From: Actinoplanes utahensis
Lineage (GTDB): Bacteria > Actinomycetota > Actinomycetes > Mycobacteriales > Micromonosporaceae
Length of the DNA stretch: 64,000 nucleotides
NCBI RefSeq assembly: GCF_016862455.1
Contig: NZ_BOMZ01000012.1
Location: forward strand, 1-64,000
Direction of reading: 5' to 3'
The translations under genes were made by a program, and so were the position numbers. This document shows, piece after piece, positions 36,559-42,187 of the stretch; within the stretch, counting starts at the first letter, position 1; each line of letters begins with the position of its first letter. Under the pieces are notes generated by a model. That model was given only the letters and a program-made list of their open reading frames with translations. It had not been told where the DNA came from and searched no databases.

Positions 36559-37917
36559 TCACATGCTGGCGATCAGGCGCTCCACCCGCTCGTCGTAGGC
36601 CCGGAACGGGTCCTTGCAGAGCACGGTGCGCTGGGCCTGGTCGTTCAGCTTCAGGTGCACCCAGTCGACGGTGAAGTCGCGGCGCTTCTCCTGGGCGTGC
36701 TTGATGAACTCGCCGCGCAGCCGGGCCCGGGTGGTCTGCGGCGGCGTCTCCTTCGCCTCGAAGATCTGCAGGTCGTTGGCGATCCGGTCGACCTGCTTGC
36801 GCTTCTCCATCAGCGCGTAGAGGCCACGGCCCCGGCGCACGTCGTGGTAGGCCAGGTCGAGCTGCGCGATCCGCGGGTGCGACATCGGGATGTCGTGCTT
36901 GGCCTGGTAGCGCTCGATCAGCTTGTATTTCGACACCCAGTCGATCTCGCGGGACACCGGGTCCAGGTCGCCGCTCTCGATCGCGTTGAGCACCCGGCCC
37001 CACAGCTCGACGACCCGCTTGGCGACCGGGTCGCCGCCCCGGCGCTCGACGAACTCGGTGGCCTTCGCCAGGTACTCCTGCTGGATCTCCAGCGCGGAGA
37101 CCTCCTTGTTGTTCGCCAGACGGATCTTGCGACGGCCGGTGACGTCGTGGCTGACCTCGCGGATCGCCCGGATCGGGTTCTCCAGGGTGAGGTCGCGCAT
37201 CACCACGCCCGCCTCGATCATGCGGAGCACGATGTCGGCACTGCCCACCTTCAGCAGGGTGGTGACCTCGTTCATGTTGGAGTCGCCGACGATCACGTGG
37301 AGGCGCCGGTACCGCTCGGCGTCGGCGTGCGGCTCGTCGCGGGTGTTGATGATCGGCCGGGATCGGGTCGTCGCGCTGGAGACGCCCTCCCAGATGTGCT
37401 CGGCCCGCTGGGACAGGCAGAACACCGCCCCGCGCGGGGTCTGCAGCACCTTGCCGGCGCCGCAGATCAGCTGCCGGGTCACCAGGAACGGGATCAGCAC
37501 GTCAGCGAGCCGGCCGAACTCGCCGTGCCTGCTGACCAGGTAGTTCTCGTGGCAACCATACGAGTTGCCGGCGGAGTCGGTGTTGTTCTTGAAGAGGTAG
37601 ATCTCCCCGGCGATGCCCTCGTCGTGCAGACGCTTCTCCGCGTCGACGAGCAGGCCTTCCAGGATCCGCTCGCCGGCCCGGTCGTGGGCGACCAGATCGG
37701 TGACGGAGTCGCATTCGGGGGTCGCGTACTCAGGGTGGGAACCGACGTCGAGGTAGAGACGGGCGCCGTTACGGAGAAAGACGTTGCTGCTGCGTCCCCA
37801 GGACACCACTCGGCGGAACAGGTAGCGGGCCACCTCGTCCGGAGACAGCCGCCGCTGCCCCCGATAGGTGCACGTGACTCCGTACTCGGTCTCGAGGCCG
37901 AAAATTCGCCGTTCCAT
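36559..37917 (-). CDS. pafA: Pup-protein ligase PafA
   Basis: A 452-residue carboxylate-amine ligase of the Dop/PafA family. It attaches the C-terminal glutamate of Pup to substrate lysines using ATP, marking proteins for the proteasome. Evidence: start [14 protein letters not shown] with metal-binding E9, [15 protein letters not shown] with the catalytic base D57, [20 protein letters not shown] and [20 protein letters not shown]. It lacks the extra loop that Dop has after the N terminus. The length is normal. A 21-bp perfect hairpin separates it from prcA, so it may have its own promoter. Confidence 0.97.
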
Positions 37918-38861: not shown

Positions 38862-39701
38862 TCAGCCGCCCGGGTTCTCCATACGCCCCGCGACGACCCG
38901 CTCGGCCACCGTGGTGATCTCTTCGTCGCTGAGCCGGTGAGTGCCGTTCGCCGTCGCGGTCATCACGACCGGGTAGATCTTGCGGGTGACGTCCGGCCCG
39001 CCGGTCGCGGTGTCGTCGTCGGCCGCGTCGTACAGCGCCTCGACCGCCAGGTTGATCGCGTCGCCGGTGCTCAGGCCGGCCCGGTACCGCTTCTTCAGCG
39101 CCGACTTGGCGAACAGCGAACCCGACCCGATCGCCTCGTAGCCGGTCTCCTCGTAGAGCCCGCCGGCCACGTCGAAGCTGAAGATCCGGCCGGCACGCGC
39201 CGTGTCACCCGGCGCCAGGTCGAACCCGGCGAACAGCGGGACCACGGCCAGGCCCTGCATCGCCGCGCCCAGGTTGCCGCGCACCATCGCGGCCAGCCGG
39301 TTCGCCTTACCGTCGAGCGAGAGCATCGCGCCCTCGATCTTCTCGTAGTGCTCGAGCTCCACCTGGAACAGACGGATCAGCTCGATGCCGATGCCCGCGG
39401 TGCCGGCGATGCCGATCAGCGAGTAGGCGTCGGCGGGGTGCACCTTCTTGATGTCCCGGCTGGCGATGAGGTTGCCCATGGTCGCCCGGCGGTCACCGGC
39501 CATCACCACACCCTCGGCCGTCGCGATCGCGACGATCGTGGTGCCGTGCGGCGCGATGTCCGCGGACAGGCCGGGCGGAAGCGGCCGGCGTCCCGGAAGC
39601 AGCTCCGGGGCGGCCTGGCTCAGGAACTGCGTGAAGGAGGACGTCCCCGTGCTGGTGAAGAAATCCGGTAGACGCCCGGATGGATCAAAGCCCGTCGCCA
39701 C
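38862..39701 (-). CDS. prcB: Proteasome beta subunit PrcB
   Basis: A 279-residue catalytic subunit. A 53-residue propeptide ends in HG, and T54 of TTIVAIA is the predicted N-terminal nucleophile released on assembly. [20 protein letters not shown] and [16 protein letters not shown] are conserved. The GTG at 39701 gives the family opening [14 protein letters not shown] and has AAAGGA upstream; the open frame continues to 39935 only as a shadow of the endonuclease frame. The first 82 bases overlap the 3' end of that endonuclease frame. Confidence 0.96.
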
Positions 39702-40156
39702 GTGGTTCCTTTCAGGTACGTAATCGCGCCGGCGAGGAGAACCGGGTCGTCCCGGAACTGCCCCAGACCGCCGTTGCAGTTGAAGCACAATATCCCGCGC
39801 ACCCCACCGGTGCGATGATCGTGATCTACGTGTTGCGGGTCGGCCGCGCCACAGATGGCGCAGACATCCCCCTGCTCCGCGAGAAGCGCGTCGACCTCCG
39901 CCTGGCCGATGCCATACCTCTGGCGCGGGTGACACTCCCGGTTGCCACCGGATAGCCGCTGCCTGGTCTCGTTACCGCGCGCGTTGCGGCACGGCTTGCA
40001 GTACCTGCCACGGCCACCCGTGTCGTTACGACTGCGGGGAAACTCGGCCGACGCCTTCGTCTCCCCGCAGTCCGGACAGCAGCGGTGCCTCTCGGGAACA
40101 ACCCTGCTCTGTGGACCTTCCGACCCAGCGGCATGTCCGTTTAGCGAACTATGCCC
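39620..40156 (-). CDS. Endonuclease VII-like frame with no start codon
   Basis: An open frame encoding a recombination-endonuclease-VII-type HNH protein: a zinc-ribbon [16 protein letters not shown]...YCKPCRN, a linker [20 protein letters not shown], and the HNH core [19 protein letters not shown]...[18 protein letters not shown] gene of this kind lies between pup and prcB in other actinobacteria. Between the pup stop and the first ribbon Cys there is no ATG, GTG, TTG or CTG in this frame; the frame continues open through pup, in the -1 frame, up to an ATG at 40411. It may be frameshifted, made by a -1 frameshift on pup, or damaged. The coordinates give the open stretch after pup. Confidence 0.6.
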
Positions 40157-40371
40157 TACTGTCCGCCTTTTTGTACGTATCCGCGGACGAATTCCTCGGC
40201 GTTCTCCTCCAGGACGGAGTCGATCTCGTCCAGGAGGTCGTCGACGTCCTCGGTGATCTCCGCGACCCGCTCGGCGACCTCGGGATTGGCCTCGACGGTG
40301 ACGTCCTCGATCTCCTGGTCGCTCGAGCCCTTGCTGCTCTGCGACTGACCACCTGTGTCTCGGGTTGCCAT
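40156..40371 (-). CDS. pup: Prokaryotic ubiquitin-like protein Pup
   Basis: A 71-residue, acidic, mostly disordered protein ending in GGQ. The C-terminal Gln is deamidated to Glu by Dop and then joined to lysines of targets by PafA. The helix that binds the ARC/Mpa coiled coil (about 30-55, VAERVAEITEDVDDLLDEIDSVL) is clear. The ATG has GGGGGA upstream. The last codons (GTA CAA AAA GGC GGA) are A-rich and use codons rare in this window; they contain an A5 run at 40168-40172 next to the stop. Confidence 0.97.
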   Translation of the reverse strand: MATRDTGGQSQSSKGSSDQEIEDVTVEANPEVAERVAEITEDVDDLLDEIDSVLEENAEEFVRGYVQKGGQ

Positions 40372-40469
40372 GGATGTCCCCCTTCTGAAGCCACCCGAAG
40401 TCCTGCAACATCGGGTTGGAAAAAACCTACCTCGCACCTGTGACGAAACGGCCCGCCGGAACGGGTGTT

Positions 40470-41990
40470 TTATTGCCGGCTCGTGATCACCTCGAGCAGA
40501 TCCTTCGCGCTCTCGCACGTGTCGAAGAGCGCGCCGACGTGCTTCCTGGTGCCCCGCTCCGGCTCCATCATGGGGACCCGGACCAGCGACTCGCGGCCCA
40601 CGTCGAAGATGACCGAGTCCCAGCTGGCGGCGACCACTTCGGAGGCGTACTGCGCGAGGCAGCGGCCACGGAAGTAGGCGCGGGTGTCCTCCGGCGGCTC
40701 GTACATCGCCCGCTGAGTGTCGTCCGGGTCGAGCAGGGTCTGCATCGACCCGCGGGCGACGAGCCGGTGGTAGAGGCCCTTCTCCGGGCGCACGTCGGAA
40801 TACTGGAGGTCGACGAGCTGAAGCTTGGGCGAGGACCAGGCCAGGCTCTCCCGCTCCCGGTAACCCTCCAGCAGACGCAGCTTGGCCACCCAGTCCAGGG
40901 TGTCGGAACAGAGCATCGGGTCGCGGCCGAGCTTGTCCAGCACGTCCTCCCAGCGATCCATGACGTCCGCGGTCTGCTCGTCCACGTCGGCGCCGTACCG
41001 CTCGTCGACGAACTGGCGGGCCCGCTCGTAGTACGCCCACTGCAGGTCCAGGGCGGTCAGCCGGCGGCCGTCACGCAGTCGCATGAGGTGCTTGAGCGAC
41101 GGGTCGTGGCTGACCGCCTTGAGCTCGCTCACCGGGTCGGCGATGCCGAGCTCGCCGGTGAACACCTTCTCCTCGATCATGTTGAGGATCAGGGCGGTGG
41201 TGCCGGCCTTGAGGTAGGTGGAGATCTCCGACAGGTTGGCGTCGCCGATGATCACGTGCAGGCGGCGGTACTTGTCGGCGTCGGCGTGCGGCTCGTCCCG
41301 GGTGTTGATGATCGGCCGCTTGAGGGTCGTCTCCAGGCCGACCTCGACCTCGAAGAAGTCGGCCCGCGAGGAGATCTGGAAGCCGGCGCCGCTGCCGTCC
41401 TGCCCGATGCCGACCCGGCCGGCGCCGCAGAAGATCTGCCGGGTCACGAAGAACGGGGTGAGGTGGGCGACGATGTCGGCGAACGCGGTCTGGCGCCGCA
41501 TCAGGTAGTTCTCGTGGGCCCCGTACGACGCGCCCTTGTTGTCGGTGTTGTTCTTGTAGAGCTGGATGCGGTGCGTGCCGGGGATGGTGGCGGCACGGCG
41601 CGACGCCTCGGCCATCACCCGCTCACCGGCCTTGTCCCACTTGACCACGTCGAGGGGGTTGGTGACCTCGGGAGTGCTGTACTCCGGGTGGGCGTGGTCG
41701 ACGTAGAGGCGGGCGCCGTTGGTCAGTATCACGTTGGCGAGGCCGAGATCCTCGTCGGCGAGGGCCTCGGCGGGATCGTAGGCGGCGCCGGAGTAGGTGA
41801 AACCGCGGGCGTCGCGCAGCGGCGACTCCTCCTCGTAGTCCCAGCGGGCCCGGCCTTTGCTGCTGAGCTCAGGACGGGCGCCGTAGGCGTTGACCACCTG
41901 GGACGACGTGACCATCGGATTGGCGCCGGGCTGCCCGGGAACCGAAATGCCGTACTCGACCTCGGACCCCATAATCCGTCGAACGCTCAT
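40470..41990 (-). CDS. dop: Deamidase/depupylase Dop
   Basis: A 506-residue homologue of PafA. It converts the C-terminal Gln of Pup to Glu and removes Pup from conjugates. Evidence: [16 protein letters not shown] (metal-binding E10), the Dop-specific loop (about 40-80, [18 protein letters not shown]), [14 protein letters not shown] with D98, [21 protein letters not shown] and [20 protein letters not shown]. The loop and length set it apart from PafA. Start ATG at 41990, preceded by AGGGTGG. It is followed 98 bases later by pup. Confidence 0.97.
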
Positions 41991-42187
41991 GCGACCACCC
42001 TGTCCGCCACGAAGCCAAGCCTGCTCATGCATCGAGCCTAGACGCTCTCGTATCGCTTTCCGAAGCTGCCTGTGTGCGCGCCGGTACCTTGCGTGGCGAG
42101 TTTGATCACCGTGGCGTGGGCGGGCATGGTCCTGAGCGGGGGGTTTCACCCGTCGATGCACGCGCGGGTCCGCGCGAATGATGCGAA

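Follow-up and report, generated by a model that had tools for sequence, protein, structure and literature searches.

T4 endonuclease VII is the type member of the Endonuclease_7 family (PF02945), whose zinc cysteines and HNH residues we take to be the motifs CAIC, HVDHDH and CFNCN in the sequence described here. dnaX is a programmed -1 frameshift gene, and translational coupling through a Shine-Dalgarno sequence that lies within the preceding gene is likewise a known system. The locus that we analysed, within a stretch of 64,000 nucleotides referred to below as the window, is built like the actinobacterial Pup-proteasome locus, with pup and prcB as neighbours and a gene of the Pup-ligase family upstream, but differs from it by a nuclease sequence between pup and prcB. 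This sequence resembles the Endonuclease_7 family by its Pfam match (E 1e-23) and its complete CAIC, HVDHDH and CFNCN motifs; it differs in having no usable start, in missing the first zinc ribbon and in carrying changes at conserved residues. A search of the literature available to us brought up no paper describing a nuclease gene at the pup locus, and the part of the review PMC8223512 available to us has 0 occurrences of the word 'endonuclease'.

A sequence-only reading of this DNA had drawn attention to the start-less nuclease frame and had suggested that ribosomes slip into it from pup. The comparison with relatives presented here points elsewhere: the frame is very probably a start-lost remnant, that is, a pseudogene, of an Endonuclease_7 gene in a lineage that is losing this gene, with no frameshift fusion involved.

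Results

On the minus strand, pup can be read from an ATG at 40371 to a TAG at 40158-40156 (Table 1). It ends with the codons GTA CAA AAA GGC GGA CAG TAG, in which an A5 run occupies positions 40172-40168. The nuclease frame, open from 40426 to its stop at 39620 on the same strand, matches PF02945 with 83.5 bits against a curated cut-off of 23.6, lies at -1 relative to pup and overlaps the first 82 nt of prcB. The motif CHNAR, which closes the second zinc ribbon, reads CRNAR in the window. A profile search of the window's own genome found no second Endonuclease_7 match. Two similar minus-strand genes, at 40470-42071 and 36559-37917, flank the proteasome genes; the former, upstream of pup, matches Pup_ligase in a profile search, and by position and N-terminus the two are presumably dop and pafA.

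Table 1. Features of the pup-prcB region, in positions of the window
Feature	Coordinates	Strand	Basis
pup, 71 aa, C-terminus GGQ	40156..40371	-	PF05639 E 2.7e-29 and sequence
AAAAAGGCGG at the pup 3' end, holding the A5 run; weakly Shine-Dalgarno-like, inside the Pup KGG codons	40163..40172	-	
ATG at the start position of intact relatives, out of the nuclease frame	40132..40134	-	relatives G010, G035, G079, G085, G077
Deletion scar region, 172 nt net lost behind the ATG	40100..40131	-	interval lengths and alignments
Start-less Endonuclease_7 frame, very probably a remnant; second zinc ribbon, HNH motif and tail open	39620..40155	-	
Second zinc ribbon CPDC...CKPC	39989..40078	-	alignment
Endonuclease_7 domain, CAIC / HVDHDH / CFNCN complete	39710..39931	-	PF02945 E 8.3e-23 and alignment
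prcB, probable start GTG 39701	38862..39701	-	PF00227; start by reading the sequence

The nuclease frame contains no ATG, GTG or TTG from 40 nt before the pup stop to the HNH motif. The sequence-only reading had gone further for a shorter stretch, stating that no ATG, GTG, TTG, CTG or ATN codon occurs from the pup stop up to the first Cys of the zinc ribbon, and codon reading shows that it was true. Its observations that the frame stays open back through pup (it is open from 40426, with an in-frame ATG at 40411 upstream of pup), that A5 lies at the pup end and that the nuclease frame is -1 to pup all hold, and the codons that it had called unusual are indeed so: in prcB of the surveyed loci, AAG occurs 800 times and AAA 5 times, CAG 415 times and CAA 3 times. 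Judged by the relatives, an open -1 frame through pup is unremarkable and common in loci that have their own start: by a hand count from the survey table, in which some genomes are listed twice under different names, 12 of 31 full-length -1-frame rows run without a stop for more than 200 nt upstream of the pup stop although they possess their own start codon.

G010 (80% identity) and G035 (75%) are among the intact relatives that match the window best. After the pup stop, an ATG follows at +21 in the window, G035 and G079 and at +22 in G010, G085 and G077, while the distance from the pup stop to a prcB motif is 466 nt in the window, 638 in G035 and G079, and 639 in G010, G085 and G077. Compared with all five relatives, 172 nt net (57 codons and one base) are absent behind the window's ATG, a disruption relative to intact orthologues of the kind by which pseudogenes are recognised; the count rests on these interval lengths, as net lengths in gap alignments follow from the chosen end points. 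Since 172 is not a multiple of three, ATG 40134 is out of the nuclease frame, and by the same arithmetic the loss places the nuclease frame at -1 to pup. The whole length difference to G010 and G035 falls before the HNH motif, and the deletion takes the first of the two zinc ribbons. Compared by hand, GGTCGGAAGGTCCA after the window's ATG matches GGTCGAGAGGTCCAG of G010 in the ATG frame, and the window's sequence from CAGAGC onward matches G010 one base out. The alignments point to a probable history that combines a frame-preserving loss of about 171 nt (57 codons) with a shift by 1 nt near 40112/40111, a split placed by hand, the aligner having divided the gap differently in each of the five comparisons, least with G010. 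One alternative in the sequence-only reading, that the frame had been lost relative to ATG 40134, was right: this is the start position of the relatives, with the 172 nt missing behind it.

To place the window among its relatives, we surveyed 67 genomes of its genus (probably Actinoplanes sensu lato, family Micromonosporaceae), and pup was found in 67/67. The pup-prcB interval of each genome, 68 loci with one genome contributing two, was scanned in three frames against a profile built on six intact proteins; a single match that began at profile position 14 or before and reached at least position 190 was taken as full-length, and the rest were termed remnants. The two copies of the doubled region, in G019 (L065 and L066, on contigs C26 and C88), have an equal pup end and interval length and are possibly an assembly duplicate. 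A full-length nuclease frame is present in 18/68 loci and absent from 50/68. In 17 of the 18 full genes, an in-frame ATG follows the pup stop at a distance of 4-26 nt; the remaining one, in G064, has a GTG at +66. Their frames relative to pup are -1 in 7, 0 in 6 and +1 in 5. The best 80 of 272 named loci, 76 of which had a recognised pup end (the other 4 were left out), gave 68 full-length frames, one with an internal stop, spread 24/25/19 over -1, 0 and +1. For the codon and A5 counts, 15/144 rows were removed as duplicates; in this deduplicated set, A5 occurs in 16/26 full genes at -1, 14/27 at 0 and 15/20 at +1. The comparison of A5 and frame across relatives that the sequence-only reading had put forward as a check therefore yields neither a conserved -1 relation nor an A5 that tracks the -1 frame. 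It had named relatives with a clear ATG and no A-run as the pattern that would speak against slippage; the clear ATG exists, but the A-run is there too, probably for another reason.

The genus remnants span many stages, from one frameshift (G078) through internal deletions (G025, G028) to N-terminal loss (G017). The most reduced keep only the last 30-40 codons, a survival that the overlap of the tail with the prcB start can explain. Among 20 loci that we tabulated, four have no start before the HNH motif, three of them at -1 and one at +1. G028, too, lacks the first ribbon and a start before the HNH motif, while a large part of its domain is retained. A start-loss event shared by the window and G028 was considered and rejected: their junctions differ and G028 does not stand beside the window in the tree described below, so that the two are treated as independent. 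Four of the loci classed as remnants (G018, G024, G068 and G025) have an ATG in frame with a shortened protein, and these copies may not be dead. The versions in G018, G024 and G068 (L113, L109 and L098) are 106 aa long, comprise the HNH part only and have the last Asn of CFNCN changed, reading CFNCS, CLDCF and CFNCD. Elsewhere in the family, L163, L180 and L190 (Micromonospora sonchi, M. endophytica and M. inaquosa) combine a single zinc ribbon with an in-frame ATG, a state perhaps produced by a deletion running from one ribbon into its similar neighbour; L190 has Phe in place of one ribbon Cys. L156 and L155 (M. alfalfae and M. qiuiae) read ACG and ATA at the position of the relatives' start ATG, and their first ribbon is missing or broken.

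The frame that remains in the window carries signs of both decay and constraint. It departs from the intact copies at 5/67 near-invariant columns, 4 of which are invariant in 72/72 copies, and at these four the changes are G to R, H to R, Y to C and L to P. When each intact copy was left out in turn, 64/72 departed at 0-2 columns and 7/72 at 4 or more; these seven are all named loci (three metagenome bins, three other genera and one Micromonospora). The single-ribbon copies L163, L180 and L190 depart at 0, 1 and 2 columns, and G028, start-less in the -1 frame, at 0/50. With changes polarised by four outgroups, the window branch has 10 non-synonymous and 1 synonymous and the G010 branch 5 and 3, small counts of 11 and 8 changes in all. 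Pairwise dN/dS between the window and G010 is 0.23 and not raised, eight intact pairs of similar synonymous distance ranging from 0.09 to 0.43. The remaining 160-odd codons are free of stops, and the zinc and HNH core is complete. As conserved residues are changed but dN/dS is unraised and the HNH core complete, the loss in the window would be recent, or the relaxation modest.

A tree of pup and prcB with 77 rows and many weak forks was used to follow the gene; G014 and G244 (no prcB pattern) and the second G019 copy were left out, 11 non-genus rows were picked by hand, and for these rows the state full or not full was likewise assigned by hand. The tree requires at least 14 changes between presence and absence of the full gene. 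The row nearest to the window is G065, and these two form a group of three with G026 (support 87); in both G065 and G026 nearly the whole nuclease gene is gone. The tree of the nuclease itself, from 72 intact proteins, has two deep lineages (split support 83), each with Actinoplanes and Micromonospora rows. The nuclease type, assigned by a crude N-terminal pattern that mistypes at least G087 and G063, switches 19 times on the prcB/pup tree and 6 times on the nuclease tree; the larger number on the former hints at an exchange of the nuclease at a fixed site.

What, then, keeps the odd codons at the end of pup? AAA is found there in 18/18 full genus loci and 27/49 remnant loci, and GGG or GGA encodes the first Gly in 14/18 full but 3/49 remnant loci (Fisher p 1.7e-8, relatedness ignored), which gives AAAAAGG(G/A)GG just before the nuclease start. 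The named loci show no such difference (6/7 remnants, 48/55 full). With relatedness taken into account, an average of 4.5 of the 9 independent pairs have the Gly codon changing along with the gene and almost none have it going the opposite way (median sign-test p 0.06); for AAA the average is 2.3/9. The A5 run itself was also tried as a tracker of the nuclease gene and rejected, with, on average, 2.4 of 9 independent pairs going the same way and 1.2 the opposite. A wider survey took in 60 of the 95 family members outside the genus that had a pup match, together with 20 of 110 class genomes with a match, 7/80 loci being left out for having no recognisable pup end. In the other family genera, AAA occurs in 12/18 loci with nuclease sequence and in 3/35 of those that keep a trace or lack it; the corresponding figures for the class sample are 1/5 with nuclease sequence, 1/3 with a trace and 0/12 with none. 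The pairing energy with the anti-Shine-Dalgarno sequence, a noisy measure because good pairing is also given by CAG AAG GGC, has genus medians of -10.8 for full loci and -7.2 for those without a full gene, with -7.7 in the window. It does not differ between full and not-full named loci, and in the wider sample comparable values are attained by loci that lack the gene: -10.8 for family loci with a trace, -6.8 for family loci with none and -11.6 for class loci with none. The expected 16S tail sequence is present in 4/4 relatives tested and was not found in the draft genome of the window.

Taken together, these codon patterns suggest, at a strength that is no more than suggestive once relatedness is controlled, that CAA AAA GGN probably serves as a Shine-Dalgarno sequence for the nuclease gene from within the Pup C-terminus. 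Many full-gene loci resemble known translational coupling from an upstream gene, with AAAAAGG(G/A)GG and an ATG 4-26 nt on; the window differs, its start being out of frame and its AAAAAGGCGG weaker. Where 20-26 nt separate the pup stop from the ATG, the spacing is large for such a sequence to act directly, and re-initiation after termination of pup would be required. CAA is kept in 41/49 genus remnants, which the Shine-Dalgarno role does not explain.

Discussion

The sequence-only reading favoured a slip into the -1 frame at the CAA AAA G of pup, by which this strain would make a Pup-nuclease fusion. As in programmed frameshift genes such as dnaX, an A-run is present and the -1 frame is open, here into the nuclease domain, and the one codon AAA can pair again after moving back by a base. 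The strongest point in favour of the frameshift is G028, which is also start-less, in the -1 frame and open back through pup, with CAAAAAGG. The likeness to dnaX ends there: A CAA AAA is no canonical X XXY YYZ heptamer in the pup frame, so that only one tRNA could re-pair, and the downstream RNA is not unusually structured (97 nt folded without pseudoknots, z -0.62, with 49/200 shuffles folding as well). Nor do the relatives behave as a frameshift would predict, for their nuclease frames take every relation to pup, A5 is found with each of them, and the full -1-frame genes have start codons of their own. The window's nuclease frame has lost four invariant residues, and Pup needs its GGQ end for ligation, which the fusion would lack. 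We regard slippage in this strain as extremely improbable. Translation from a non-canonical start, or from ATG 40411 through pup out of frame, deserves no more credence: that ATG is in the nuclease frame, but out-of-frame openness across pup is common, no in-frame ATG, GTG or TTG stands between the pup stop and the HNH motif, and the relatives start just after pup and in different frames, a pattern on which we reject the non-canonical initiation that had earlier been listed as an option.

More consideration is due to an error of base calling or assembly that hides a working single-ribbon nuclease gene starting at ATG 40134. The frame is one base off an in-frame 57-codon loss (the split being placed by hand), Micromonospora has single-ribbon copies with a normal ATG, and dN/dS is not raised. 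However, four otherwise invariant residues are changed in the window while L163, L180 and L190 depart at so few columns, and the nearest relatives, G065 and G026, lack almost all of the gene; we therefore think an error unlikely, if less so than slippage. The preferred reading, a start-lost remnant, has its own difficulties. A stop-free stretch of 160-odd codons with a complete zinc and HNH core is not what a decayed gene would lead one to expect, nor are the unraised dN/dS and the start-less G028 without a single departure. Seven of the 72 intact copies also depart at four or more columns, the Micromonospora single-ribbon copies with an ATG indicate that loss of the first ribbon need not kill the gene, and the reality of the one base that decides the frame is the main point of doubt.

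For the start-lost remnant, we propose the following history. An Endonuclease_7 gene would have stood between pup and prcB, as in many Micromonosporaceae. The net loss of 172 nt behind ATG 40134 would then have left this ATG reading another frame, and the nuclease gene of the window would no longer be translated and would be drifting. The A-rich end of pup is dictated by the Pup residues QKGG; in lineages whose nuclease gene works, it would probably also act as the Shine-Dalgarno sequence that couples the nuclease to pup. A broader idea, which we put forward as speculation and think rather unlikely to be right as a whole, is that the nuclease behaves as a homing-type selfish gene that throughout the Micromonosporaceae is gained or exchanged at one fixed site, coupled to pup by the Shine-Dalgarno sequence and decaying repeatedly, with the window caught just after loss of the start.

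The data make the candidate Pup-nuclease frameshift fusion very unlikely and serve as a reminder that an annotated Endonuclease VII gene may be no more than a remnant. The locus lends itself well to following the decay of a gene in nature, one family holding intact, single-ribbon, frame-shifted and tail-only copies. The Shine-Dalgarno sequence that probably lies in the Pup C-terminus, finally, would be a testable case of the codons of one gene serving the next.
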